Source of the DNA: Lytechinus variegatus
Lineage: Eukaryota > Echinodermata > Echinoidea > Temnopleuroida > Toxopneustidae
Length of the DNA: 64,000 nt
NCBI RefSeq assembly: GCF_018143015.1
Contig: NC_054749.1
Coordinates: 33,889,000-33,952,999, forward strand
Direction: 5' to 3'
Below the pieces are notes generated by a model. That model saw only the letters and a list, made by a program, of their open reading frames with translations. It did not search any database and was not told where the DNA came from. How positions within the stretch are numbered: position 1 is the stretch's first letter; the number at the start of each line of letters is the position of its first letter. Position numbers and translations under genes: made by a program. Shown piece by piece: positions 3,038-63,565 of this stretch.

Positions 3038-3420
3038 GTATGAATTTTTTTTATTTATACATAGCGTGACATTTTAGAAACGTGATTTTATCGACTAAAT
3101 GAATTCAATGTTTGCTCGCATTAATATGTACCAATAATTTCCCTTCGGTATATCAGTGTTCGTTTACAATGTTGCAAGCTTCTTCCTTCGTCGCAGATGG
3201 CGTAGTTGCTGATGAAAGCTTCACCAGGGAAAGTTCTCACTCCGTCTTTGAATCAAATTCACAAGACATATAGTACATTGACATATCTAGCACCTACTTC
3301 GTTAATTTTTTGTATTTTGCTATAAGTTAATGTTGGGATGATAGCAAGGCGTTCCCAAATGATTGAGTTTTATTTCATAATGTATACTTTTCTATCTCCT
3401 TCATTTTAATCAATTATCAG

Positions 3421-4397
3421 GGATCTCGCGGCCAAACGACGCCATCAAACTTGGCGAAGAATCTATTCCCAATCAAAGGAAAGTGAAGATACCTACTGAC
3501 CATGCAGTTATTCATGTTGATTCTGATCTTACGAACAAGACTAGTCATGTAGAAAAGCAAGATACCATGGATATGGAACCACTACAGGGATTCGGGATTC
3601 CTGATCCCTTTACCATCTTGACAACAACTAACACGGCCTTCAGCGACTTGACTGAGAATTGGTTGGAGAGCTTGCGACGGTTGGAACGTCCCTACAACAT
3701 TACCCTAATCGCAGAGGACTATGGGGCTTACCAGTACCTCAATGGCCACAAGGACGTCATGGAGTCTTCAAAGCTACGGATCAACCTGAAATTCACGGAC
3801 CAGAACGTGAGCCATTCTAAAGCTCTTGGGTTCTACACCAAGGAATACATCCAACTCGTCGGGAAACGTCCACATTACATCCTTGACATACTGCGTACGG
3901 GAGCTGGTGTCCTCTTTGCTGATGCTGATGCAGTATGGCTGAAAGACCCTGTTCCTCTCATCACCGATACCTACTCAAAGTATGATATATGGGTGGCACT
4001 TGGTGAAGGAGGACAAATTCCTTGCCCTTGTTTCATGTACATCAAGCCAAGTCCTAGATCCACAGCAATGGTCAAAGCTTGGCAAGCCAGGATAGAAGAT
4101 CAACTCAATACAACATCTCCTGAAAATGACCAGGGAGCATTGGACTGGGTTATGCGTAATCATATCCGATATAAGAAGTTACGGGTTAAGAAACTAGACA
4201 TGACTGCATTTCCGACTGGGCAGTCTATGTTCTTGAAAAAGGGCTGGTACGCAGCTCATAAGAATGAAATATATGTTGTGCACGCAAATAAGGTCGGCGG
4301 ATATGCCAAGAAGAAATTCGTATTGAGATGGAAAAAGCTTTGGTTTCTTGGAAAAGATAAAAAGGAAAATGATACTCAACCAAAAATAGATATGTGA
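3421..4397 (+). CDS. GT77-like nucleotide-diphospho-sugar transferase, 3' terminal coding exon
   Basis: This exon encodes about 324 residues ending at TGA 4395-4397. The frame is open back to an acceptor at 3418-3420 (aattatcag), in phase 1. There is no in-frame ATG near the GTG at 3483, so it is a terminal exon and not a whole gene. The protein resembles the nucleotide-diphospho-sugar transferase family (DUF271/PF03407, GT77; plant RGXT and animal MGP4-like proteins). A WLESLRRL helix is followed by a DXD metal/nucleotide-sugar motif, D-A-D at 3921-3929, in the context VLFADADAVWLKDP. Then come a CPCF segment, an NDQGALDW block and a VVHANK block near the C-terminus. Such enzymes are type II Golgi proteins that move a sugar such as xylose from a nucleotide donor. 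The exact donor and acceptor cannot be read here. A diverged paralogue lies at 16355-21716. Confidence 0.85.
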
Positions 4398-6497: not shown

Positions 6498-7800
6498 GTG
6501 GTCGCAAATCAAAATGATTTTTAGTGCCTGTCCGAAAAAAAATTAGCTTTGAATTTTTTGTATGAACACAAAGCCTTGAACATTCTAGAAAGCGAAAACA
6601 TACAATTAAACTCTTTTTAAAAGCTGATTGTACTGTTTCTATTATAATTTCTAGCTCGAAGAATGGTTGTTGTATGGCTGCACGTTGCACGCTGAGAATG
6701 ATGTCTATCAGTGAGAATATGTGCATGCATGTGGTCCATGGATGCCCAATGAATCTATTGTGTGATATATTATAATAACCATTTCCCGTTTTCAGCTGCT
6801 GCTCTCTTATGCTCTCTCTAGCTTTCTCTCTCCTTTCAAAATAAAATCTCTCTCGTGAGCTAGGGAAGTGTTTAATGCCATATTCCAACTATGTTATTCC
6901 TGCAACTGCACACGCTTGATACGTGCAGGCTTGCATGAGTAAGGGCTCTCATAATTACCTATACTCATTAGCTTTGACGAGTATTTCAACTACGCGATAT
7001 CGAGGCATCCAAAACAATTCGATGAGCACCTAGGGTAAGCAGAGGCACTGGACTGGTATATAAATTTTCATTCAAACAAAGAGTAAGTATGCATATACCT
7101 TCATATTGTGATTCCTCGACTGAATGAGTATGATTCAATATTCATATTAATTTCGTGAATATGTTAATGATATCCATAAGGCATATAGGCTATTCATGGT
7201 AGAAACCATGCATGCCCACATTCATGTGCGCATGACCTAAAATGTTTTGGATTATTAAAAACGCGACAGCTTTGTCATATTTTGATATGCAGCCAACTGG
7301 ACTCAATCTGATGAAATGGCTGTTCTGAGTAAATAGATGCTATATCATGATTATTATGACTTAATCATTGTTCACTTATTCATGTTGACATGGAATATAT
7401 ACTAGGTTGAGCCCTGATATACTAAATAGTCTTTCCGTAGCTAAAACTTCACTTCATTTTTATTTATACATTGTAAAGCTCTTTGATATGGATTTCATGA
7501 AAATCGCAGTTATAGGCATATTATAATAAAGCTCATGATGGCCTTGAAAATAAGATTCATAATTGTAATATAAGTGTATTTTGGTGTATACTGAAATAAA
7601 GTGGGAGCGATGAGCATGGAATAATAATTTATGGTAAATGCTAATTAGTTTCTGTTAAAAATGCACGCTTATAGCTCCTATAGTTACTAGGAAACGCGTA
7701 CCAAGTCCATGAATATTTTAGCACTCGTTCATAATATCAGTATAACCCGCCTAACCCCCAGTATGAAGCACGAAGTATAGTAGTGGATCATGGAGTGTTG
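6498..7800. other. AT-rich intergenic sequence
   Basis: No conserved coding frame, RNA gene or clear repeat boundary is seen. The ORF-like stretch on the minus strand near 6475-6888 has no recognisable domain. Confidence 0.5.
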
Positions 7801-8788
7801 AAGGACAAGTCCACCCTAACAAAAGGTTGAATCGAATAAAAAGAGAAAAATCCAACATGCATAACACTGAATATTTCATCAAAATCTGTTGTAAAATAAG
7901 ACAGTTATGACATTATAGAATAATGACGTTCAACCATCATACTTACCACTCTGCTCCTTTATTTTATGATCTAAATATTCTCGATATTTTCAAACACTAC
8001 CAATATTTGATAGGAGTATTTATGCACGATTTAATCAATAATCGGTTGCCACATAGTTTTATTGATTATTTTTCATTTATAGATCATCCTTAGAATACAA
8101 GAAATAGAGAAAAGAGAAATGTTAATCTTGAGAAAAATAATACCAATTTGGGAAAACAATCAATTTCATTTTCTGGTCCTACTTTATGGAATCTCCTGCC
8201 AAGTAATATTAGAAACACCCCCAGTCGTAAGACATTTAGCAAATCGTTAAAATTAATGCTACTGGGAGATTATAATTAATTTGGTATGGTAAAATACTGC
8301 CTGAAAACAAATAATTCTATGTAAAGATTTTGTGGATAATTAAGATGTTTTTTTTTCTTGTAAATAGTGTAAATAGTGAAAATATGTTCACTGAAAATGA
8401 TAATTAGCATAATGTAATATGGCTCAGTCAAGTTTGTCAAATATGTAAAAAAAAATATGTATAATTCAAAAATTAACAACAACTGCTTTCCGTTTTGGAA
8501 AGCAGTTTTGAAACTGACAATATGCCACCCTGTATAAATAAAACTACAAATAAATAAATTAATAAAAACCAAAAGAAATAGTGAGTGAAGGACATCATCG
8601 ACTGTCTCATTTTGGATGTCACTGAATTGTGCATATCACTGTTTTGTGAAAAATAAGCGAAACTTTAAAACGTCATGTATAACTTTTTTTATTTTAAATC
8701 CGATTTTGATGAAATTTTCAGTGTTATGCTTGTATTATTTCTCTCTTCTTATTTGAATCAACTTTTTGTTGGGGTGGACTTGTCCTTT
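7801..8788. mobile_element. Foldback element (AAGGACAAGTCCACCC termini) split by a LINE
   Basis: The left end AAGGACAAGTCCACCC is matched by the inverted right end GGGGTGGACTTGTCCTTT. The same family occurs at 59395-61484. The copy is interrupted at 8108-8572 by a LINE 3' end. Without that insertion it would be about 500 bp. There is no coding capacity. Confidence 0.75.
8108..8572 (+). pseudogene. 5'-truncated LINE 3' end (reverse transcriptase C-terminus)
   Basis: The frame ending at TAA 8277-8279 reads like the C-terminal tail of a non-LTR retrotransposon ORF2: LGKQSISFSGPTLWNLLPS, then NIRN and TFSKSLKLMLL. About 290 bp of A/T-rich 3'UTR with an (aaat)n-like tail follows. A 9-bp direct repeat AAGAAATAG flanks the insertion (8099-8107 and 8573-8581), as expected for target-primed insertion. 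It lies inside an older foldback element. It is severely 5'-truncated and inactive. Confidence 0.75.
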
Positions 8789-9267
8789 AATGGTTTCAAG
8801 TAATACAAGTGATCTGAATCGCATGTTGGTTTCGCATCCAGTTCCTTTCATGAAAGATCAAATTGAAAATATCAAGTTATAGGCTTTATATTCATGTCAC
8901 AACTACCAAACCAGTCACATGCTGACAGACAGACAGACAAAGAGAATACCATAATACAATCGGTCGGTTTGGAGTCCGTTTCGCGAGTGTGACTGATCCG
9001 AATGCAACATCAATCAAAATAGACATAAAAAACGATTTAAGCAGGGTATTTTTTTCTTCAAGAGGTCAAGGGGTTCAATTTTGACTCAACACCAGTTGAT
9101 TCGAATGAAAACTGTAACATCAAACAAGTATGATGATGTATGGTGCAAAATAAAAAAAGTGTAAAAATAAAAAAATGAATCATTCTCGAGAACTAATCTC
9201 AGGTGACAACTCCCACCGGAGAACAATATCCCCCACTCCCTGGCAGACAACGCCCCCACCGAGAATG
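8789..9267. other. Intergenic, no gene seen
   Basis: AT-rich sequence with a short (agac)n run near 8930. No gene or element boundary is recognised. Confidence 0.5.
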
Positions 9268-11554: not shown

Positions 11555-11798
11555 CACTGTAAAAACTGTGGTGTTAAAACTGACACCAATCGGTGTTAAT
11601 AGAGGACCACACCCTGAGGTGCTAAAATTACACCCCATGCAGAGATTAAACATAACACCAAAGATTATAAATGTAACAACAAAAGATGTTGTAATAACAC
11701 CTATAGGGGTAAAACTAACACCACCAATTTAACACCGGTGTAAAATAACTGGTGTGGTCCTCTATGTACACCGGTTAACACCACAGTTTTTGCTGTGT
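11555..11798. mobile_element. MITE with CACTGTAAAAACTG-type ends, copy 1
   Basis: The 244-bp element is built from alternating GGTGTTA/TAACACC words in inverted orientation. It starts CACTGTAAAAACTGTGGTG and ends with the complement (CACCACAGTTTTTGCTGTG). The flanks suggest a TA duplication, as in Tc1/mariner-type MITEs. Copies are at 12528-12766 and 14506-14746. Confidence 0.8.
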
Positions 11799-11968
11799 AC
11801 ATACCAAAAGCTTGGGGCCATCTTCAGATTTAAAAGAAAATCATACAAAAAACTGAATTCTGCATGTATTGATACTGAATGTGCTAGCTATGGCTGTTCA
11901 GTCACATCACACATACATTTTTCAACCTGTTTTGACTGCTTTTCTGTCAAACCCCAGTCGGTTTCATA

Positions 11969-12021
11969 ATTCAAATTTTATGCATACCTTTAAACTTTAA
12001 AGGTATGTATAAAATTTGAAT
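11969..12021. repeat. Near-perfect 26-bp inverted repeat (hairpin)
   Basis: The left arm at 11969-11994 and right arm at 11996-12021 are complementary with one mismatch, separated by a single base. It is AT-rich and could extrude as a cruciform. It is not obviously part of the neighbouring MITEs. Confidence 0.7.
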
Positions 12022-12527
12022 GTAAATATTTATTTTGGACAACCAGAAAGCCTGTCAGATGCTTGTCCGACATAGCAATAAATGATATATGTCAACCTGT
12101 GGACTGTCAACGTCCCTGAAACGTCGAGATTTCTCTCCAGTTCCTGCTCTACAAGTTACAACTTCACTTAGCCAACTCTAGCCAGCCTTCTCTCATCTAC
12201 CCAATCTTTTCTCTTCCTCCAACATGTCCAACTCAAACAGCCTTCTATACTCTAGTCTCTCACCCTGCCCACTTCTCAAACTTTCCGCTCTTCCTGGTTT
12301 ACAATCCTAAAGATACTCTGCTTTCTTTTTCTCTTCCACCTCTATCCACACGGTGTCACCGATTGTTTATGCTACCAAGCAAACATCTGCTAGAATCAAG
12401 TTTGCATTGTTGCTATGTCAGACAAGCCTTTGACAAACTTTCAGGTTGTAAAAACAACCTTTACTTGAAATATATTCAAATTTTAATGCATACCTGTAAA
12501 GATCATATAGTATGCATAAGATATGAA

Positions 12528-12766
12528 CACAGCAAAAACTGTGGTGTTAACCGGTGTACATAAAGGACCACACCAGTTATTTTACACCGGTGTCAAATTG
12601 GTGGTGTTAGTTTTACAACTATAGGTTTTATTACAACACCTATGGTTGTTACATTTACACTCTTTGGTGTTATGTTCAATCTCTAGGGTGTAATTTTAAC
12701 ACCTCAAGGTGTGGTCCTCTATTAACACCAATTGGTGTCAGTTTTAACACCACAGTTTTTACAGTG
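12528..12766. mobile_element. MITE with CACTGTAAAAACTG-type ends, copy 2 (opposite orientation)
   Basis: The sequence closely matches the reverse complement of the copy at 11555-11798, with both terminal inverted repeats present. Confidence 0.8.
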
Positions 12767-14429: not shown

Positions 14430-14950
14430 AATGGGGGCGTCGTGGTATAGTGGTTACGACTTTCGTCTTTCAATCTGAAGGACGTTGGTATGATTCCAAG
14501 CCATGCACAGCAAAAACTGTGGTGTTAACTGGTGTACATAGAGGACCACACCAGTTATTTTACACCGGTGTTAAATTGGTGGTGTTAGTTTTACACCTAT
14601 AGGTTTTATTACAACGCCTATGGTTGTTACATTTACACTCTTTGGTGTTATGTTCAGTCTCTATAGGGTGTTATTTTAACACCTCATGGTGTGGTCCTCT
14701 ATCAACACCAGTTGGTGTCAGTTTTAACACCACATTTTTTACAGTGTGGCGTGTTATCCTTCAGCAAGAAATTTACCCACAATGTGCTGCACTCAACCCA
14801 GGAGAGGTAAATGGGTAACGGCATGAAGTAATTCCTAAAAAGCTGTGCGCACCGGAATTGGTAGACTGGTTTAGCCGGTTTGATATAGGAGCGTCTTGAG
14901 CACCTAGAAAGGTGGATACGTGCGCTATACACTGAAATCCTATATTTTTA
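14430..14950 (+). mobile_element. tRNA-derived SINE interrupted by a MITE
   Basis: A tRNA-like head at about 14433-14505 has an A-box-like GTGGTATAGTGGTTACGAC and a degenerate B box (TTGGTATGATTCCAA). The SINE body resumes after the MITE at about 14747 (cctt-cagcaagaaatttacc, gctgcactcaacccaggaga) and ends with a gagcgtcttgagcacctag block near 14890-14940. The same body lies in reverse at about 38870-39032. Confidence 0.65.
14506..14746. mobile_element. MITE with CACTGTAAAAACTG-type ends, copy 3, inside the SINE
   Basis: It is nearly identical to the copy at 12528-12766 and sits between the tRNA-like head and body of a SINE, so it inserted later than the SINE. Confidence 0.8.
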
Positions 14951-16374: not shown

Positions 16375-21716
<5,342 letters not shown>

Positions 21717-23759: not shown

Positions 23760-24874
23760 AACAAGTGGAATGCCTCTGGCCGTCTCACCTGCATCACGCG
23801 ATTCAACATAGCAGCAGTGCTGACTTTGAAAACTACTATAACTCGCACAAGATGTTCAGTGATACTTGGTTACTCTTATTTCCACGTTTTATGAACTAGA
23901 CCAATACACTTACAGAGATATATAGGATGGTAATTCAACATATACCCCCAATGTTGCCAAAATTCATTGACCTCACATGACCTTTGACCTTGATCATGTG
24001 ACCTGAAACTTGCACAGGATATTCAGTGATACTTGATTACTCTTATGTCCAAGTTTCGAAAGTCAGATCAATAAACTTGCAAAGTTATGATGGTAATTCA
24101 ACAGATACCCCCATTATGGCCAAAGTTCATTGACCTTTGACCTTGGTCATGTGACCTAAAATGCACACAGGATGTTCAGTGATACTTGATTACTCTTATG
24201 TCCAAGTTTTATGAACTAGACCAACATACTTTCAAAGTTATGATGGTAATTCAACAAATACCCCCAATTCAGCCAAAGTTTATTGACCCTAAATGACCTT
24301 TGACCTTGATCATGTGACCTGAAACTTGCACAGGATGTTGAGTGATACTTGATTACTATTATGTCCAAGTTTCATGAATCAGATCCAAAAACTTTTAAAG
24401 TTTTGATTGTAATTCAATAGATACCCCCCGAATCGGCCAAAGTTTATTGACCCCAAATGACCTTTGACCTTGGTCATGTGACGTGAAACTCATGCAGGAT
24501 GTTTGGTGATACTTGATCAACCTTATGTCCAAGTTTAATGACCTAGGTCCATATATTTCCTAAGTTATGATGACATTTCAAAAACTTAACCTCAGGTTAA
24601 GATTTTGATGTTGATTCCCCCAACATGGTCTAAGTTCATTGACCCTAAATGACCTTTGACCTTGGTCATGTGACATGAAACTCTAATAGGATGTTCAGTA
24701 ATACTTGATTAACCTTATGGCCAAGTTTCATGAACTAGGTCCATATACTTTCTAAGTTATGATGTCATTTCAAAAACTTAACCTCAGGTTAAGATTTGAT
24801 GTTGACGCCGCCACCGCCGTCGCCGGAAAAGCGGCGCCTATAGTCTCACTCTGCTATTCAGGTGAGACAAAAAC
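23760..24874. mobile_element. DR1-bearing repeat element, copy 1
   Basis: It opens AACAAGTGGAATGCCTCTGG then GTCTCACCTGC, and closes GCAGGTGAGAC-like (attcaggtgagacaaaaac), so GTCTCACCTG is inverted at the ends. The interior has diverged ~155-190 bp tandem units. Each holds TGACCTTTGACCT followed by TGGTCATGTGACC or a variant, starting near 23978, 24131, 24294, 24458 and 24650. TGACCTTTGACCT reads AGGTCAAAGGTCA on the other strand, a perfect DR1. No open frame is present. Confidence 0.8.
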
Positions 24875-32339: not shown

Positions 32340-35300
32340 CTGAACAGGACGAGAGAAGAGAATAACGGTACAAGATAAAATATTCAAAATGCATATGGTA
32401 TTTTGAAGTCGATTCTACTATTCTACAGGGATCATTTATATTACAATATTTAAGGGAATTCATTTTAAAAGAACACACAAATATCAACAGACCAATTGCA
32501 AGGCCATTGAGAAATACGAAAAGGACACCTAAGACCATGGCCTTGGATAGATATATCCCACATAGATTGAATCCTGTATAGTGATTGGTTCAAATAGCAT
32601 CATGTGACCAAATATATTTCAACTATGACATTGCGTGACGTCAGAACTCGATATATTTTTTCGCTATACCAATATTCTGACGTCATTATTTCAGTAAACT
32701 GGATATTTAGCTAAACTGTCAGGTGCACCGGGCAAGTCCTGTGATGCGTCGGCGCAGGCACTTATCTGCGTTCCGCTGAGCATGGAGGCTCGGAGAAAAG
32801 TAGGTAATTCAACACAAGTAACTGGACTTTGCAAGCTCAGCACATAGATTTTGGTTATAAGTTATTAAAAGTAGGATATAAAACAAATATATCAGGCGTT
32901 TCATTTGAAAGCATAGTGGAAATTATTAATCCTCGGTTGGACTGGCAAAACTACTATCGCCCCTCGGGAAAAATAGTAATTGCCAGACCAACCTCGGATA
33001 AATAATTCCACTATACTTTCTCAAGGCCTGATATATTTAATGTATCCCCTTTTAGAAAAAGACCCAGCATTACAAAAAAGTAAAAGTTGCAAAATGTGAT
33101 TTCAAGTTGGACCCTGTCAAAAGTGCTTTGATTAGAATGATATTCAATTTTTGGTTACTTTTTGACAATTGCCTACATGAAGTTTTACTGCTCCAATTAA
33201 AAAAAACTGCTTATTTGAGAATTCTTATTGGACCTATTTTCTTATCAATTTGTCATCAGTTCTTTATTTCAAAGGACCATTCCACTATCAAGATCTCAAA
33301 CCCCGATCAATACCGATCAGTAGATCGGTGGAGAGTGCAATAGGAATCAGTTGAAATGGGGAGCAGCCTAATAACAACGTTGTGAAGACAGAGTAACAGC
33401 AGACATTTCATTTAGATCGACATGATCGCCTAAAAGTTTTTGAACATGTTCAAAATTGATGCCGATTGTGGTGGCAGCGGGAAAACCGTAAACGACAGTG
33501 CGCAACGCCGTGGACGAGCATAATCGGGTCTTTCCTAAAGCAGCGTGTGGACATAATGAATCCCTCATTCCTTTGGAAAATTTTCATTACTGCAAATTAT
33601 TTTTCGCTGAGGCCCAGTAAAATGGTTCATTTCTCCCTGATCCTGCCCGATTCAAGATTCAAGATTCAAGATAATTTATTGTCATGCATAAGAACACACA
33701 AATTTGCATTCGGGCATAAAGTTACAAACATGAATACAATCTGAAGGTTTGTCAAATCGTAGCCAAATTGGCTAAGTGGAACAGGGGCTTTAAAGATTAA
33801 CAAGTGGAATGCCTCTGGCCGTCTCACCTGCATCACGCGGTTCAACATAGCAGCAGTGCTGACTTTGAAAACTACTATAACTCGCACAAGATGTTCAGTG
33901 ATACATGGTTACTCTTATGTCCACTTTTTATGAACTAGACCAAGACACTTTACAGAGATAGGATGGTCATTCAACAAAAAAACCCAACATGGCCAAAGTT
34001 CATTGGCCTTACATGACCTTTGACCTTGATCATGTGACTTGAAACTCGCACAGGATGTTCAGTGATACTTGATTACTCTTATGTCCAAGATTCATGAATC
34101 AGATCCATAAACTTTCAAAGTTATGATGGTAATTCAACAGTTACACCCAATTTGGCCAAAGTTCACTGACCTTTGACCTTGGTCATGTGACCTGAAATGC
34201 GCACAGGATGTTCAGTGATACTTGATTACTCTAATGTCCAAGTTTAACAAACTAGACCAATAAATTTTCAAAGTTATGATGGTAATTCAACAGATACCCC
34301 CAAATCGGCCAAAGTTCATTGACCCTAAATGACCTTTGACCTTAATCATGAGACCTGAAACTTGCACAAAATGTTCAGTGATGCTTGATTACTATCATGT
34401 CCATGTTTCATGAATCAGATCCATAAACTTTCAAAGTTATGATGGGAATTCAACAGATACCTCCAATTCGGCCAAAGTTCATTGACCCTATGACCTTTGA
34501 CCTTGGTCATGTGACATAAAACTCACGCAGGATGTTCAGTGATAATTGATTAACCTTATGTCCAAGTTTCATGAACTAGGTCCATATACTTTCTAAGTTA
34601 TGATGACATTTCAAAAACTTAACCTCAGGTTAAGATTTCGATGTTGATTCCTCCAACATGGTCTAAGTTCATTGACCCTAAATGACCTTTGACCTTGGTC
34701 ATGTGACATGAAACTCTAATGGATGTTCAGTAATACTTGATTAACCTTATGACCAAGTTTCATGAACTAGGTCCATATACTTTCTAAGTTATGATGTCAT
34801 TTCAAAAACTTAACCTCAGGTTAAGATTTGATGTTGACGCCGCCGCCGTCGGAAAAGCGGCGCCTATAGTCTCACTCTGCTTCGCAGGTGAGACAAAAAC
34901 ACTTCTCTCACTATTCTCTTATATTTTTGAAACTGTGTAGACCAGTGGTGGATCTAGCCAGGAAATGTGTATAGGGGTCATATTGACTGTGCACAATAGT
35001 GGGGGTCTTTCAAGGTATATTGTATCTAATCCTGATAGATCCTGGTGTAGTCTCACCTTGCACATAAACTTGCACGTAAACAATGAACAGGATGCGCCTA
35101 ATTATATCAACTGAGGGGGTAATTTGATGACTTCTAGGAAAGTTATATCGAGTTCTAATCATCCTTTTGTCACCTTTGCACAATATTGGATGAGTCATTA
35201 GCGCTTCCACAGACTGACTGACTTACTTTTTCATCCATTATGTGTCAGAAGTGCTCTTCTATTGTAATAATCAACATTTTTTTTTCACTTTGTGAAGTTG

Positions 35301-38300: not shown

Positions 38301-41300
38301 TTTGGTTCAAAATACTATTTGCATTGGATTTGTACACAAATTCACGTTTTTGAGTAATTTTGAGTGTGCATGCACTTACGAAATGTTGCGTAATTTCCGA
38401 ACCGCGTACCCGGGGGTCACAATTTTGGTCTCAAAAGTTGCGCGAGACTTGAAAGTAAAAAGTCAGTGAGCGACGCGGTCAAAAAATTTTGCACGGCGGA
38501 TTTATCGCGAAAAATGTCGAGGGGGGGGCTGAATCAGCCCCCCCCAGTCTTTTTAGGGCCAAGTTCCAATAAAAACGTGAGATTCAATCATCTATTAATT
38601 TTCAGTTCAGCATAAAGCTAGGAATACTGAAATCGGAAAATCTGCTTTGCTGCAAGCCCCTGTGGTTGGAATAAAATACAAATCGGCTTCAAGTCACAAT
38701 GATGATGATGTCATTATAAGTTCAAGGCTAATCACTTTATACAGATGGGTATTGGTATCATATCACCCCATGCTCTGGCCTCAGGCAGTATAATAAGAGC
38801 CATTCCATCTAAATATAGTATTACTCCATCTTAAGCTCAAGCTACTGCTTCCAGTGCTGTGCATTCAAGAAAACATTTCTGACAGGTACATATTTACCTT
38901 GCCTGGGTTGAGTGCATCACAGTATGAATAAATCTATTGCGGAAGGAAAACACACCATTGCTAGGATTTGAACCCACACCCCTCTGACTGAAAGAGTCAG
39001 AACAACTAGACCAAGATGCTTTCAACAAGTATAATCTACTTTATTATGCGGTAATGTGGATGTATTTCAAATCCCTCTCTGGCCACTGGAATGGATGTAT
39101 TACCTGTTTGATTGTTACAGCTGGTCTCCAATCTTTATCCTCATCCAGAAGAGAAAGGCACACTGTGCCTGATGGGTATACATTGGGATGAAACAATGGA
39201 GGGTCAAATTTACCTGCAAGGCAACAGACAGCAAAAGAACAGTTATCACTCACATCTAGGATTGAAATGGAAGAGGATATTAATTGTGGTTTGACGACAC
39301 TTGATGTATAGGTCTAATTGCATATACTTACATTTTTTGAGATAATTCACAATACAATATTAATTTAATTAACAAATACACTCCTGTCAGGTCCCTACGT
39401 TCATCCAACTCTGGTTCCCTAGTTGTTCCCAAATCTGCTTAAACATGGGGGGCACAGGCTTTTGCTCACGCTGGCCCTGTTCACTGACATGACCTTCCCC
39501 TGGTGATATGTGACTGCACTTCCATTGAAACATTTCAAAGCTACCTTCAGACGCGTCTGTTCAATGCTTCCTATTCCTAATTGTTCCTTAATTTATCTCT
39601 GTATTTGTACTACTCTCTCTCTCTCTCTTTCTTTTACTGCGCCTTGGGCACTCTGCAGACTGGATTTGGCGCATTAAATTAGTATTATTATTATCAACCA
39701 TGTGATAGCCAACCTCTAATAAGATCATTTTCCGAAACAAAAAAATCAGCATACCTCTGATCGGTAGCCTGATCCATGCTCGCACCCAGTGTAATAATTG
39801 AAATTTCTTTTGAGAGGGCTGTTTATATAGAAGTCCATCTAGTGTGCTCTCAGAATTGAGTGAACATTCACATTGACACATAGGCAGAAATATTATTTGA
39901 AGGTGTTTTTTTATAATCATTTAAGGTAACTATTTAAAGAGTATCGCCCTTACCCCATCTGCCCATGCGCACCATTTGTCAATGCTCTCAACAACAATAT
40001 TCAAACCACAGTTTGCTCATATCAATGAGTCACTAAAGCCTTCAAAATACTATATCTTTACCGGATTCATCAAAATGAGTAATGGAGGGAGGGGGGGGGG
40101 GGGGGGTAAGGGCGAGGGCTGGAATATTGAGATTTGTATTGTTTCTCAAAGGTTATTTTGCAATAATTTTTGTGTGTATGTGTCAGTCACTGTCAGATAT
40201 AGAATTTTTCACATTGAGATAATATATCTAAAGTAAAGACTTTGTGCCGACCGTATTCAACACATGTTGTGTTCAACTGATGATGCACATACATGGACAT
40301 TACTATGGGAAAATATTTCAAATTCAATTTGATTAAAATAGACCTTGATTCCAAGAAATCAAACCTCTTTTTGTCTTCACTAGGAATGGCCTATCCATAA
40401 ACCAGCATGAATGCACATGTACAACACAATGAACAGGATTTGAAAGTAAATGAATACATGAATGGTAGTATTTGGATCTATGCCAACCTCTAGAAATATA
40501 AGAGTAATTACAACCCATTGCGGCAATATATAGTAACAACCACCTTCTAAGAGACAGAGATATAATAGTGGGTTAAAGAGACAGTTGATTTTCTAAGAAA
40601 GATTTTAAATGAATTAAATTAAGTTTTCAAAATTTGTTCCAGAAAGAACATCAAATGAAACTCACAGGAATAAGTTGCTTTCTCACATTTCCTCATAGTT
40701 ACTTTGGCAATAGCTGAGAAGTTTGGGCTGAATACTCTTCAAGGAGCTGTGTGTGATCCAGCACCCATAGTTCAGCAAGTAGGGCAAATGCATCAAGGGT
40801 AAACTTGTAAGTTTACCCTTTTTAAAATCAGTTCAATAATCCCCAGATATCACACTACACACCAAATGTATTTTGCTTTATGAAATAAATAAAATTTGCA
40901 TGATATGGGACCCAATACAGAAGATCTGCAATTAAATTACATCATTTATCAAATGCAACTTGATTTTTTAAAAAATACGAAGCACATATTTTTCAATTTC
41001 TTTAGTTTCTGCTGAAGGTTCCAAAACTGGATTTTATCTTTAAAAACAGAGAATGAATCGCTAGTATGTGTGTGATGAAATAGAGTCATTGACAATGATT
41101 GATAGAGAATGGCCTTTCAATAATCTAAATCAAACTTCAAATTCCCCACTATCTCCTGAATCATTAAATGGAATAGATACTATTTATAGGATAATAAAGT
41201 CCCATTACTGGGAAGTTATACATTTCAATTCATGATAAAGACTAGTGATGGGGGTATTTTTTTATATTGTTGCAAATAAAGCTGATCTTGATCTGGAATA

Positions 41301-49542: not shown

Positions 49543-50404
49543 AATTTTGTTTCTAAAAAGAATAGTTGTGAAATTGTTGAACTTTCTTTTGCTTTAATCT
49601 TTAAACAAAAAATAAGTCATTTCTACTTTCATTCTTAAAATGAAAATTAAAAAAAAAATCAAAAGAAAAAATTCAAAAAAATATTGATGACGACAGAATC
49701 AGGACAGTAACAGAATTACAAAGATCAGAATATTTTTTTTCATGATTATTTCATGTAGCTATGATCATGATTGATTATGATGTCATTGCCAATGCAGCTT
49801 CTCAAATTGGAAAGTGTTGATCGGGAATGTCGAAACAGTAGACAAACAACCTCCACTCAACTGTTATCATACCGGTAAAATTCACATTCCAAAGAATATG
49901 AGTGTTTTAGAAAGTTCCTATTTTCTGAAAAGTGGTAAAATCTGGTCAATGAATTACTTTAAAAAGATAAAATATCAGTCCATTCTTGGTCCAGAAAGAT
50001 AGACGCTATGTGACTTCAAACATATTTCCAACACGAAAATTGAGTACATGGGACTGTACTGTGTATTTTAGTGTTGTGAAATCACTCGGCGTTGATCGTC
50101 AGAACTAAGACGGAACTGATAATTTATCATTTCATTTTCAGTAATTGACCAGATTAAACCCCTTTTAAGAAAACATTGATAACGGAAAAACGTTTCAAGT
50201 TCGGAATACGAATTTTACCTGTATAATAGCAACCAAGAGCAGGTTGTTTTGACTTCCTTTTTCAACTTTCCTTACCAACCATTTCCGGAACATCGATCAG
50301 GGAACATACGTTGATTTAGTTTGAATTTTTATCTTTTCTGTTTTTTCACCCTCATTCCTTCATCTCTTATTTATCTTTTATATTAATATGGAAACTTCAG
50401 AAGG

Positions 50405-50890
50405 TGGAATATATATACTTTACCATTACTTTGTCAGTCACAAGGAATTAATTTATGTCTTGTCTTTTTCTTTTTTTAAATTCAAAACAATTAAATGTAT
50501 GTCCGATTACAGCAATACGTAATTCAACTACACTTTTTAACTGAGTTATGCTTAAAATGTCCCCACATTTTATAAGGAAAAAAATATATTCATGTTTATA
50601 AAAAAAATTGAAAACGATAAAAATTTAATCAAACACGAGACCGAAACTGTCATACTTTGACATTTACGAGGAATGAATTTATGTCTGGTTCTTTTTCTTT
50701 ATTAAATACAAAATGATTAGGTCCGATTACGATCACGATCGATTACGGCAATACGTAATTACACCACACTTTTATACCGAGTTTAGCTTCAAAATGTCCC
50801 CTCATTTTATCAAGAAAAATATATTTATGTTAATAAAATATTCTTAAGTTGATAACAGTTCAATCAAAGACGAGATGGGAGCTATCATAG
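50405..50890. repeat. Tandem duplication of a ~245-bp unit
   Basis: Unit 1 (about 50410-50650) and unit 2 (about 50665-50890) share tttatgtct, tccgattac, gcaatacgtaatt, aaaatgtcccc, cattttat and ttcaatcaaa/cgaga blocks in the same order. Confidence 0.6.
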
Positions 50891-57403: not shown

Positions 57404-59394
57404 TAATAAACCATATTTTGACAAGATATAATCTACAAATTTCATAATAAATACAAATTTTACAACTAATTTCACAGCCACAAGCTTGACTCCACTGGTT
57501 GCAAATAAGAAATCAAATGAAAAAGGGACCAGCCCTAGTTTTCATCTTCATTAGTTTAAAAAAAACATCTTATCATATATCAGCATCACATTCATCCTAT
57601 CACAATGACCATACATGAAACATAATTACAACTGTGCAGGTAACACATAAAACCCTATAAAAAATCAATAATCAAGTAGTATTTTTTGTAGTCAAGTAGC
57701 AACCAGTTTGGGGCTGATAGTGCTTTCAAACTTTGTCATGTATTCATCATTTTAGTTTTTTATTCATGAAATCATTATGAACACAAGTCAGAACACATTT
57801 ATTGACAACGTTGGATTACCTAAATTTATATTTTGGATCTTTTTTTTTTAAAGATTTAACAATACCAAGTGAATAACATCATACCAACACAATGGCATAC
57901 TGTTCTCCTGAAAAGAAATACAATGTATAAGAATAATTACCCTGACATGTGATACTCCTAATGTGCAAATATAATTCCTCAAGTATTCACATACTGTATT
58001 CATAATCACGAGAGTGAATGAGTTTTATAGGTAAAGTGCATGCAATTATGCTCAGTAATCAAGTATAGTACTGAACCATTATTTCACATGCATTCACAGA
58101 AAACATGTGATTTGTGTATATGATAGAGTTGTATAAAAAAGGAGTATAAAGAACAAGACTAATGCTGCCTAATCAAAAAGCCAATCAATCAACAGGCCTT
58201 GTATCATCAAGTGTGGAGATTGTGTACAAGGAAAAAATATACTGTCAGAGCTCAAACCCAGCAACCCCTTTGCTCTAATTATAGCCAATTATGTTCTCAA
58301 CTGGTCATGTTCCCACCTTTTGTACATATACTACAATATTCATTTCTCATTCGAGCAGGGATATCTTTAGTATGGATTACCCCTACTCATTCGAAATAGG
58401 ATAATTGTATGTCCCACTTGTTCATGCTTTTAAGAAAATAACCTATATGATCTCAATCCCAAAACCAATATCTGAAGTAACAAATATGAAAACCTGATCA
58501 TAAGACAGGCATCTCTGCAATGAATAAATGATTCAATATTAGTTACAATCATTCTTGACTTGACACAGTGAAAGACACACATAATGAGTGCTAGTTGACA
58601 TATGGTTGAGGCGTAGTTTTGCTCAACTGGATTTTCTTTCTTGCTAGAGCTATGCATCTGCGACCAGACAGTCTTAAATAAATACATTACATATATACGC
58701 ATACCTGGAATTAAAGATGATGGTAGTATATTAATTTCCATCTTCATTGATAATAGATGCTGAAAACATAATTAACACAAAGCAGTGGTTCCCAACATAT
58801 CTGTATATTTTGACAACATGGCTATATGTACTCTATATAGTATTACAGTGTGCCAAGTAATACTAGTATACAGCACCCATGACTTCCATTAACAACTAGT
58901 ACTTTTTCTACCCCCCCCCCCATAACCTGGATGGATGTAATCAACTGCTATCATCTCTGTGATGATATTCCAAGGGGGGGGGGTACTCTACTCTCTCATC
59001 ATCCGACACTCTATATCTTGGTTTTAACTTGCATGTTGCCATTATATTGGTAATAAAATCAATCATTCCTCAATCTTAAAGGGGGAGTGAACTGTGTATG
59101 GTCTCTCAATGACTGTGTGTTAAAATACATAGTCCTAAAATATACGTTTTCAGATATCTACTAATACTACAGATAATAAATTGAACTATAATTGTATTTG
59201 TATAGAGAAACTAAAATGTTTGGAGAGGAAGGGTAATTGTTCTACTATAACTACTGCGGTATAAATGTATTGATCAGTTAATTAGCATGTTATCATTCAA
59301 GTGGGTCTATATTACTAGACTACACTAGCATGATGGGTCAGGAAACTGGCCAGGTTATAAGTAATTCTCACAGAACCAAATTAAGTCTGGTTTT
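57404..59394. other. Intergenic, no gene seen
   Basis: AT-rich sequence. C and G runs at 58912-58921 and 58974-58983 could pair. No supported gene. Confidence 0.5.
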
Positions 59395-60250
59395 AAAGGT
59401 CAAGTCCACCCCAGAAAAATGCTGATTTGATTGATTGATTCATTTATTGATTCCACTTTTAAAACAAATATCAAAATATACGTAACAAATGATTTGAATT
59501 GATAGAGAAAAATAAAACAAACATAATGCTGCAAATTTCATCGAAATTGGATGTAAAACAAGAAAGTTATGACATTTTTACTGTTTCGCTTATTTTTCAT
59601 AAAACAGTTAAATGCACAACTCAGCAATATGCAAATGGGAGAGTCTATGATGTCCATCACTCACTATTTCTTTTGTTTTTATTGTTTGAATAATACAATA
59701 TTTCAATTTTTACAGATTTGACAATAAGGACCAACTTAAAGGCGCTGTCACACCTTGGCGTTTTAGACAGCGTACATGTATGTCCGACGTATGAGGAATT
59801 TGGCGAATACGCTGGCGTACGTCGAATACGTTACGGGTAAGTTTTGCATACGTTGAGAATACGCTAAAACACGCTGGTATACGCCGTCATGCGGCGAGGT
59901 CGTCGAAAAATTTTGTGCAAGCACAAAATTTTTCGACGTATGCCAACGTATGGCTCATACGTCCCGCATACGCGGGTCATAAGTTGTAGGCAAGTTACGC
60001 GATCGTTGATACACGTTGACACGCGTTACTCGTAAGTTACTCATAAGTCGATGTACGTCGAGATAATGTCCAGCGTACCCTAAAACTTAATTCTAACCTA
60101 TAACGTGCTTTGAACGTATGTGTAACTTAACTCCAACGTATATTGACGCATGAAGACGTGCTCGGACGACCACAAAACAATACTGAACGTGTTTATAACT
60201 TACAGGTACCGCGCGCGGCAGCGTATCGCTGACGAACACGTGTCATAGCC

Positions 60251-60260
60251 TATAAAAAGG
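60251..60260 (+). promoter_or_regulatory. TATA-like box in the foldback loop
   Basis: TATAAAAAGG lies in single-copy loop sequence about 69 bp upstream of an ATG in good context (accaccgccATG). This suggests a retained promoter and short leader from a longer ancestral element. Transcription is not shown. Confidence 0.5.
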
Positions 60261-60319
60261 CTGCCCTCGACTATTCAAATCATAACCGCACGATACATCA
60301 CCGTATCAACACCACCGCC

Positions 60320-60370
60320 ATGCCGAAGAAAACTCCTGTGAACCCCAGCTTTGTATACCAATTCCTATAA
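60320..60370 (+). pseudogene. Truncated ORF start in the foldback loop, possibly MADF-type
   Basis: Sixteen codons, MPKKTPVNPSFVYQFL, then TAA where the right arm begins. The start context is good. The last residues resemble the beginning of a MADF/SANT-like domain, the DNA-binding type encoded beside the transposase in PIF/Harbinger elements. I infer that internal deletion removed the rest. The match is too short to be certain. Confidence 0.4.
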
Positions 60371-61484
60371 ACGTTGTCAATATGCCATTATACGGTAGCT
60401 GTAAGTTATAAACACGTTCAGTAAGTTTTGTTGTCATCCGGAGCACGTCTTCATACGTCAATATACGTTGGAGTTAAGTTACACATACGTTCAAAGCACG
60501 TTACTCATAGGTTAGAAGTAAGTTTTAGGGTACGCTGGACATTATCTCGACGTACATCGACTTATGAGTAACTTACGAGTAACGTGTGTCAACGTGTATC
60601 AACGATCGCGTAACTTGCCTACAACTTATGGCCCGCGTACATGGCGTATGCGGGACGTATGAGCCATACGCTGGCATACGTCGAAAAATTTTGTGCTTGC
60701 ACAAAATTTTTCGACGACCTCGCCGTATGACGACGTATACCAGCGTGTTTTAGCGTACTCTCAACGTATGCAAAACTTACCCGTAACGTATTCGACGTAC
60801 GCCAGCGTATTCGCCAAATTCCTCATACGTCGGGCATACGCTGTCTAAAACGCCAAGGTGTGACAGCGCCTTACGTTAGGCTATCGTAGGGCATAAGTTG
60901 TGTACGCCAGCAATACGCTAAGCATTCGTTGGAATACGTTACTTATAAGTTAACGAAGCGTTCGATATAAGTTACTAATACGTTATGTGTACGTCCAACT
61001 CGTTATGAATACGCTAAGTATACGCCCAGAGTTGAAAAAAACAACAACAAAGTTCAGCGTATGCCGACGTTTTAGAGAAATTTTGATACGTCGGGCATAC
61101 GCTGTCTAAAACGCCAAGGTGTGACAGCGCCTTAACATAACCATAGAGCTAATAGCTCTATGACATAACCATAAACTGTTAAAATGATGGTAATTCCACA
61201 TGTTCAGGGAGAAATAAAACTTCTTTTCACTTGACGAGGAGAAAATTAGAATATTTCATATAATAAAATACAAAAGAAATAGTGAGTGGGTGACGTCATC
61301 AGTCTGCCAATTTGCATCCCGACCAGGATGTGCATATTACTGTTTTGTGAAATCAAGCGAGACTTTAAAATGTCATAACTTTCTTATTTTACATCCAATT
61401 TTGATGAAATTTTCAGTGTTTTGCTTGTTGGATTTTTCTTTTTTTTTTTCAAATCAACATTTTGTTGGGGTGGACTTGTCCTTT

Positions 61485-63185
61485 AACTTTAAATGTAAAA
61501 GTGTATATTTTCAGAATACCCTGCTGTCAATGTATTTACCCTGTGAAGATTACTCTGGGAGAATACTTCAATCAAAGAATAATCTTAATTGATTTATTTT
61601 TCAAGAAATGCAAAGAAAAAGATGGGAATATCTAACTTATCTAAATGAATCCTTAGTAGATTATTTTTTTCCTAGAATACTGCAGGTGGATGGCAAAATT
61701 AAGCATTTCAATGGTGTGTGCAATTAAATGTTTGGTTTAATAAATAATGTCCAAGATAAGCCTATCATAGCATCAAACAATTTGGTTTACTTTCAACTTC
61801 ATCTTAATGCCATTTTGGTCTTATAATATAATCAGTCATTCTTTGGCATCTGGTAAAAAAACCCACAATATTTTATTTTGCTTTATTACCAGTTTATCAA
61901 GTCTGGTAAACAAATGCTGAAATTCACACAGGAAGTTTATCTTTGACAGTCTATGTCTACGCCTTACGTTTACCTATAAAGGTTCAAACTTTAATTCAAT
62001 CAACTTTTGGGCCAGGTGCATGCAAGTCGTTACAAGTGATCCTAAAACAATACATAAATATACTTGACAACTATCTTACCGGCAAATCACTTTGAGAACT
62101 TTGTTGTCAGAATCATGTCACTTGTAAACAGTGCTGGTCAATATTTGATTATCGCCAGCAAAATATCGCTGCTAACACGATACATCATGTCTGAAAATTC
62201 ATAATATATGTTTATTACGAGCTGCAAGTACTTAAGAGCAAGGAAGAAGCAAGTAAAAATTTTTTCATCATTGTTTGAACATAGGCATTTCGGTACCAAC
62301 TTACAAAATCCCGAGTTGATTTAAACATGGTTTAAAGCAATATAGAGCACCATTTGTGGTTAATGAATAGTGATTAACTTTACATAATCAACATTTTGGG
62401 AAAATTGTGTTACTGCGATGTATCAACATAATCATAAGACCATTATAAAATTTTCAATATATTTTTAATTTTCAATATATTTTAAATTTTAAAACAATTT
62501 ACCTGTTCAGCACTGAATCATCTAATATATCATGATTCCTTGTGTATGCTGTTATTTTCAAACTTCAAAATTAGCCTTCATTTTAGTCCATGATAATTAA
62601 GAAACTATTCTGTATATACCGGTAATATCTTTTAGACCTGCTTGGCATATTTAACAATTTGGTTGTTTTGCATAGATTTGACAATCTCATTTTTTTTATA
62701 TCCACAGCTTTTTAATATTCTTGTCGTCTTCTTGAAAAATGTCAGATTTTCACAAATGGTTAAGCGAATTGAAACGTGGTGGAATCAATTTTCTAACTAT
62801 AAGTAGCATAATATTCAAACTGTAAGGGATGTTGCAAGAAATTACAAGTCAACGTTATGTCCCAAAAATCAATCATACGTCAGTCAAAATTAAACTCTAA
62901 AATAACTAGCTCTACTAAAATCAATTTCCATTGAAAATTACAATCAAAATGCAAACAGGTTTCTTTCAACACACTTTAATGAGAGTCACCATGACTTTGT
63001 GTGTCTGCTTGCGAAAAAGAGGGGGTTATGATGAAGAGAATGATACCACCTGTCGTATGGAGTCGAGTTGACCATGTAACAGTCTATCCACTTCTTCTAG
63101 AGAATAGAACTCCAGATGGCCTAGTAGCACTGGCCCTTCTTGCTGTGCAATGTATCCAACGCGGGATCCGAACTATTCAAGACTG
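61485..63185. other. Intergenic, no gene seen
   Basis: AT-rich sequence without supported genes, RNA genes or element ends. Confidence 0.5.
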
Positions 63186-63194
63186 AATTCCAAC

Positions 63195-63565
63195 GCATAC
63201 ATTCGTAATTCCGAAGGTTCGTTATTCCGAAAGTTCGTATTTCCGAAGGTTCGTAATTCTGAAGGTTCTTTAGTCCGAAAACAAAGTGAGGTTCGTAATT
63301 CCGAAGGTTCGTTAATCCGAAAACGTAATGATTAACGAACCTTATTTCGTTTTTGGACTAACGAACCTTCGGAACAACGAACCTTATTTCGTTTTCGGAT
63401 TAACGAACTATCGGAACAATGAACCTCATTTCGTTTTCGGACTAATGAACCTTCGAAACATTGAACCTTATTTCGTTTTCAGACTATCGAACCTTCAGTA
63501 TAACGAACCTTCGGAATAACGCCACAAATGTTCGGATTAACAGACCCTTTTACGTTTTCGGATTA
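63195..63565. repeat. Inverted array of TTCGGAAT/TTCGTT-type short repeats
   Basis: The left half (63204-63327) repeats GGTTCGTAATTCCGAA and TCCGAAAAC words. The right half (63332-63565) repeats the complements (AACGAACCTT, TTCGTTTTCGGA, TTCGGAA) about every 16-45 bp. The two halves are inverted about 63330. Repeated peptide frames (NSEGSLIRK, NEPYFVFGL) on the two sides are by-products. Confidence 0.8.

Follow-up and report, generated by a model that had tools for sequence, protein, structure and literature searches.

What kind of element is the sequence at positions 59740..61132 of a 64,000-nucleotide stretch of Lytechinus variegatus DNA (the window), and what could have moved it there? It is 1,393 bp long, has TAA at either side, and is dominated by two inverted arms. 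The left arm (59739..60211, plus strand, 473 bp) is mirrored by the right arm (60393..60872, minus strand, 480 bp), and an alignment of the two gave 453 identities in 466 aligned bases, five indels (6, 9, 4, 1, and 1 bp), and a longest perfect match of 75 bp. Such identity is far beyond chance. Between the arms lies a loop of 181 bp (60212..60392, plus strand), and a 38-bp palindrome (18+2+18) in the left arm (59901..59938) has its partner at 60679-60716 in the right arm. Hence, the picture of two arms of about 470 bp around a loop, drawn in an earlier note on this DNA, agrees with the alignment. Long near-identical arms, short internal repeats, and a middle that lacks long frames are the traits of foldback-type elements, among which TU is a sea-urchin name. 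The reading as a nonautonomous foldback DNA transposon, already proposed in the earlier note in the form of a deletion derivative, is well supported, and the foldback is a new member of an already known kind of element.

The foldback is inserted in another inverted-repeat element, near the middle of a TTAA-flanked host MITE (59397..61482), which has the ends AGGTCAAGTCCACCCC and AGGACAAGTCCACCCC and TTAA at 59393-59396 and 61483-61486. The two halves of this MITE align with each other (59484-59704 versus 61241-61466); positions 61136-61240 have no match in the other half and were assigned to the MITE center by their position. Its right end, AGGACAAGTCCACCCC, agrees with the Xenopus Kolobok A3 end, AGGACATGTCAACCCC, as listed in Table 5 of PMC6004289, at 14 of 16 bases in a by-eye count, and strictly, it too falls outside the AGGRR pattern of T2-MITEs. 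Judging from its sequence, the host MITE appears to be Kolobok/T2-like. The element is a small, apparently noncoding foldback DNA transposon nested in another transposon. Kin of the host MITE was found elsewhere in the window, at 7798-8790; this copy appears to hold a different middle, since 7918-8433 was left unmatched by BLAST.

We show here that a degenerate motif, NTA(A/C)G(T/C)(T/C) (NTAMGYY; consensus about ATACGTT), recurs in the arms and in a tail to the right of the right arm at a spacing of 10 to 11 bp, as can be seen in a part of the left arm laid out by motif: ATACGCTGGC / GTACGTCGA / ATACGTTACGG / GTAAGTTTTGC / ATACGTTGAGA. All 27 motif pairs at this spacing in the window (17 of 17 on the plus strand and 10 of 10 on the minus strand) lie inside the element, which accounts for about 2% of the window sequence, and none lies outside, these 27 pairs not being independent of each other as the two arms are mirror copies. 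On the plus strand of the left arm, 12 matches were counted where 1,000 dinucleotide shuffles averaged 2.08 and never exceeded 7, and 6 pairs at 10 to 11 bp where the shuffles averaged 0.02 and never exceeded 2; on its minus strand, the counts were 11 matches (2.42 on average in the shuffles, at most 8) and 3 pairs (0.03 on average, at most 2). The plus strand of the tail has 12 matches (1.33 on average in the shuffles, at most 7) and 6 pairs (0.02 on average, at most 1), and its minus strand a single match, under the shuffle mean of 1.54, and no pairs. These shuffle figures overstate the significance of the array, because the motif was chosen after the layout had been viewed, as were the points at which the arms were split. 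Autocorrelation at lag 11 (left arm, z of 3.3; right arm, 3.5; tail, 4.6) is weak when taken alone, because one of three control stretches, chosen from flanking or unrelated sequence, reached a z of 2.6 at the same lag (50001-50473). In the other two controls (59261-59733 and 61134-61486), lag 11 was absent from the eight best lags. Within the left arm, lag 52 (z of 3.5) stood above lag 11, and lag 10 had a z of 3.3.

The orientation of the motif is ordered, mostly inward in the outer parts of the arms and outward in the inner parts. The outer left arm (59739-60060) carries 12 motifs on the plus strand and 5 on the minus strand, the inner left arm (60061-60211) none and 6, the loop (60212-60392) none and 1, the inner right arm 8 and none, the outer right arm 5 and 13, and the tail (60873-61133) 12 and 1; the total for the element is 64 to 65, depending on the minus-strand position convention. 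The observed/expected ratio of CpG is 1.98 in the left arm, 1.54 in the loop, 1.88 in the right arm, and 1.94 in the tail versus 0.65 in the window. In part, this ratio is raised because the motif contains CG, and it suggests recent or unmethylated sequence. By analogy with the Drosophila transposon Galileo, the long terminal inverted repeats (TIRs) of which contain several THAP binding sites identified by footprint and electrophoretic mobility shift assay (EMSA) in the account given in PMC3688188, the phased motifs are probably sites at which the transposase or its partner binds.

The loop raises the question of whether it is a remnant of a parental element. It contains a TATA-box-like string matching the consensus, TATAAAAAGG (60251..60260, plus strand), with CACGTG upstream of it (60237-60242), and an ATG at 60320, which opens a frame of 16 codons, MPKKTPVNPSFVYQFL (60320..60370, plus strand, including its stop). 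String, ATG, and frame length are as the earlier note had them. The ATG, the context of which was described there as good, has a G at -3 but a C at +4. The frame itself shows no evidence of coding. It was thought to be cut off by the arm, which was rejected, since its own TAA stop (60368-60370) lies within the loop, 22 bases ahead of the right arm. Its supposed resemblance to the start of a MADF-type protein is unsupported, 16 residues being too few to carry it; a Pfam scan of a padded 23-mer from the frame, too short to inform, returned no family. Downstream of the frame, GTAAGT occurs in the right arm at 60401, 60421, and 60518, and these may be splice donors.

Neither the TATA box nor the frame is significant alone, because at the rate of the window, 0.5 matches to TATAWAWR are expected in 181 bp with both strands counted, and short frames abound, the two strands of the window together having 1,175 frames that start with ATG and span 16 or more codons. 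A loop that is an arbitrary spacer, in which chance brought together a short frame and a string resembling a TATA box, is thus a serious contender, which we stop a little short of favoring. It is at odds with three features: the exact 10-mer TATAAAAAGG occurs only once in the window; TATA box, leader, and ATG with its G at -3 are arranged on one strand in an order that makes sense; and the motif content of the loop is unlike that of the arms. The TATA-leader-ATG order and a loop nearly devoid of the arm motif lend mild support to a relic of the parental promoter or 5' end, which we regard as plausible.

The element is asymmetric, because a 49-bp stretch with the right terminus is present twice. 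In the inner copy (60825..60873, minus strand), the terminus GCGCCT has its last base at 60871, and the next three bases are TAC and not TAA, whereas the outer copy (61086..61134, minus strand), identical to it at 49 of 49 positions, reaches the TAA; the final two bases of the stretch (TA) fall outside the element end. The extra right tail of 261 bp (60872..61132, plus strand) contains the motif array described above. Accordingly, the bounds 59740-61132 given in the earlier note fit the TAA at either side, but the right arm already stops at 60871/60872, 261 bp short of the right bound. The tail body (60873-61085) has an arm-like motif content, yet it is not a copy of an arm: its local alignment with the left arm scored 31 on the plus strand (reached by 0 of 200 shuffles) and 28 on the minus strand (reached by 2 of 200). 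A weak resemblance over 20 bp connects the tail with the minus strand of the loop (score of 25, reached by 0 of 200 shuffles, maximum 23), and the plus strand of the loop scored 20, a value reached by 20 of 200 shuffles.

It is conceivable that the true element ends at 60871 and that the outer 261 bp are a separate partial relative lying beside the foldback. The inner terminus is complete, the TAC behind it is one base off TAA, and the tail body resembles the left arm weakly. We consider this doubtful, considering that the exact TAA pair is formed by the left end and the outer right end, and that 60872-61132 has no match to the host MITE, which becomes recognizable again from about 61241. If the tail is part of the element, the double terminus would be explained if members of the family had recombined, or if one had inserted into a relative and the composite had then moved as one; either fits.

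Which transposase superfamily is responsible has to be judged from the ends. The left target-site duplication (59737..59739) lies in the context CAACT, TAA, AGGCGC, and the right one, again TAA, is at 61133..61135; such a 3-bp pair alone would match by chance in about 1 of 64 cases and more often in AT-rich DNA. In this single copy, the TAA pair corresponds to the 3-bp TWA-type duplication of PIF/Harbinger (PHIS superfamily), and AGGCGC starts with A, one of the two usual first bases of PIF/Harbinger TIRs (A or G), as stated in PMC4482050. Because of the TAA duplication, PIF/Harbinger is the most likely superfamily, which makes the Harbinger-like label of the earlier note a fair first guess. 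The same ends can also be read as TTAA, at 59736-59739 and 61132-61135, and the empty site is identical under both parses, CAACTTAACATA. Thus, the same foldback might have been mobilized by a Kolobok-type transposase, with TTAA followed by AGGCGCTGTCACACC at the left and a right end that has lost its terminal T. The surrounding MITE likewise ends in TTAA next to AGG, the AG of the foldback terminus agrees with the Kolobok RR terminus, and the Xenopus Kolobok ends in Table 5 of PMC6004289 all start with AG, several of them with AGG; a THAP DNA-binding domain is described in the same source as usual in Kolobok transposases. Mobilization by Kolobok nevertheless appears unlikely to us: the 4-bp parse has to assume a lost base on the right, where the TAA parse is exact, and AGGCG departs from the T2-MITE pattern AGGRR at the fourth base (PMC6004289).

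Folding prediction for RNA of 59739-60872 gave a single long hairpin with a minimum free energy of -878 kcal/mol, compared with -304 to -317 kcal/mol for five mononucleotide shuffles, and a role of the element in siRNA formation, suggested by this prediction, is possible. A natural hairpin-RNA locus, at which read-through would give long double-stranded RNA and siRNAs that silence the parent family, would resemble what has been proposed for maize Mu killer, an inverted duplication with transposon ends from which a hairpin RNA could likewise arise (PMC3440606). The 75-bp perfect stretch in the arms is in keeping with it, and so is the lack, on both strands of the element, of any AATAAA or ATTAAA that could stop read-through. 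We regard it as improbable, since any foldback has this property by its geometry, and a transcript started at the loop TATA box would cover no more than a portion of the loop plus the right arm and form no long hairpin, so that read-through from outside is required. As for Mu killer itself, its duplicated part is transposase coding sequence, and tests have shown that Mu killer silences MuDR (PMC3440606), whereas no coding sequence is mirrored here.

The element was found as one copy in the window, and no autonomous partner was seen there. When the element was compared with the window by BLAST at E values up to 1, the one match beyond the element itself spanned 20 bp at 38344 (E of 0.26). Searches of plasmids and phages by blastn and of viral contigs with exact 20- and 17-base terminus patterns, in collections from which records of this genome may be missing, returned no relatives, which says little for a sequence of this kind. 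Among genome contigs, one exact 20-mer was found in a Paraburkholderia record; at 0.47 expected, it is at chance level, and with no extended similarity it was rejected as a relative. A bacterial promoter and terminator scan gave 3 and 1 sites versus shuffle means of 3.4 and 1.8 and was set aside as not meaningful for eukaryote-like DNA. Rfam at gathering thresholds and a tRNA search gave nothing in the window. An 11-bp phased foldback arm was not named in the titles and abstract openings searched, a partial coverage of the literature that is not proof of its being unpublished.

Several other inverted or tandem repeats were observed in the window. A foldback at 11555-12766 has arms of about 245 to 249 bp that are 93 to 96% complementary in two stretches, and a third copy of its arm, 91% / 89% complementary to the first, is found 1.7 kb on (14506-14747). 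An inverted-repeat element at 17199-17532, with the ends CTCAGTCACA...TGTGACTGAG, contains a nested 162-bp palindrome (17289-17450, 95% complementary), part of which recurs at 17995-18060 (80%). At 63202-63521, a TTCGTAATTCCGAAGG-type tandem array becomes its own reverse complement (63236-63331 versus 63426-63521, 81%). Two other arrays, at 23840-24805 and 33879-34837, have units of 163/316 bp and 191/192 bp that are similar in the two arrays, and their starts are 10 kb apart. A frame at 3381-4397 has strong similarity to nucleotide-diphospho-sugar transferases (PF03407, 94.5 bits); a PF03407-like frame at 20916-21716 stays below the Pfam cutoff (20.4 versus 22) and is possibly a diverged or decayed relative.

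How, then, might the foldback have originated and moved? The explanation that we favor, with moderate confidence, is that of a nonautonomous cut-and-paste foldback mobilized in trans, with phased binding platforms in its arms, a parental remnant in its loop, and a second terminus added later. The transposase of an autonomous relative, most likely of PIF/Harbinger, would move the element in trans, and the long arms would provide large platforms for end binding. A motif that recurs every 10 to 11 bp would present its copies on the same face of the helix, and many molecules of the transposase or of a Myb-like partner may load cooperatively at each end. Binding of the Harbinger Myb-like protein to TIR sequences has been reported (PMC9179366). 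As for the order of events, we infer that the loop, with its TATA box, leader, and ATG, would have been left over from the 5' region of the parent after the element had lost its body and gained an inverted copy of one end, and that the second right-hand terminus would have been acquired later, by terminus recombination or by nested insertion into a relative and composite movement. It is tempting to go further and to imagine the arms as a purpose-built scaffold, in which helically phased arrays of one site, switching orientation midway in each arm, let the transposase or its partner assemble along hundreds of base pairs, pair the ends, and at once cover the loop promoter. This would make the element a self-repressing, self-synapsing minimal transposon, whose second nested terminus would be usable; we consider such a design improbable.

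The element shares some traits with known systems and differs from them in others. PIF/Harbinger, which has the traits of the ends discussed above in common with the foldback, differs from it in arm length, with about 93% of its TIRs under 60 bp (range, 5 to 1042) in the survey of PMC4482050 compared with arms of about 475 bp here, and no transposase was seen here. Galileo, of the P superfamily, likewise has long and internally repetitive arms, which contain several sites for DNA binding (PMC3573991, PMC3688188), and extended, recombinant, and chimeric TIR forms are documented for it (PMC3573991). Galileo is set apart, however, by its 7-bp duplications and, in group F, by internal tandem repeats of about 210 bp in place of an 11-bp register. 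Tetris, a member of the foldback class, is similarly an apparently nonautonomous element with long arms, internal repeats, and a middle without apparent coding, but its duplications of 8 to 10 bp and repeats of about 220 bp (PMC4079207) differ from those of the foldback.

Little evidence so far bears on the promoter in the loop and on the siRNA account. Of broader relevance is the question of why some DNA transposons have arms that are hundreds of bases long, for which the reason is only partly explained. In the foldback characterized here, the arms come down largely to a single short motif that recurs at about one copy per helical turn and switches orientation, which yields a concrete binding prediction for the protein that would recognize the ends of this element.
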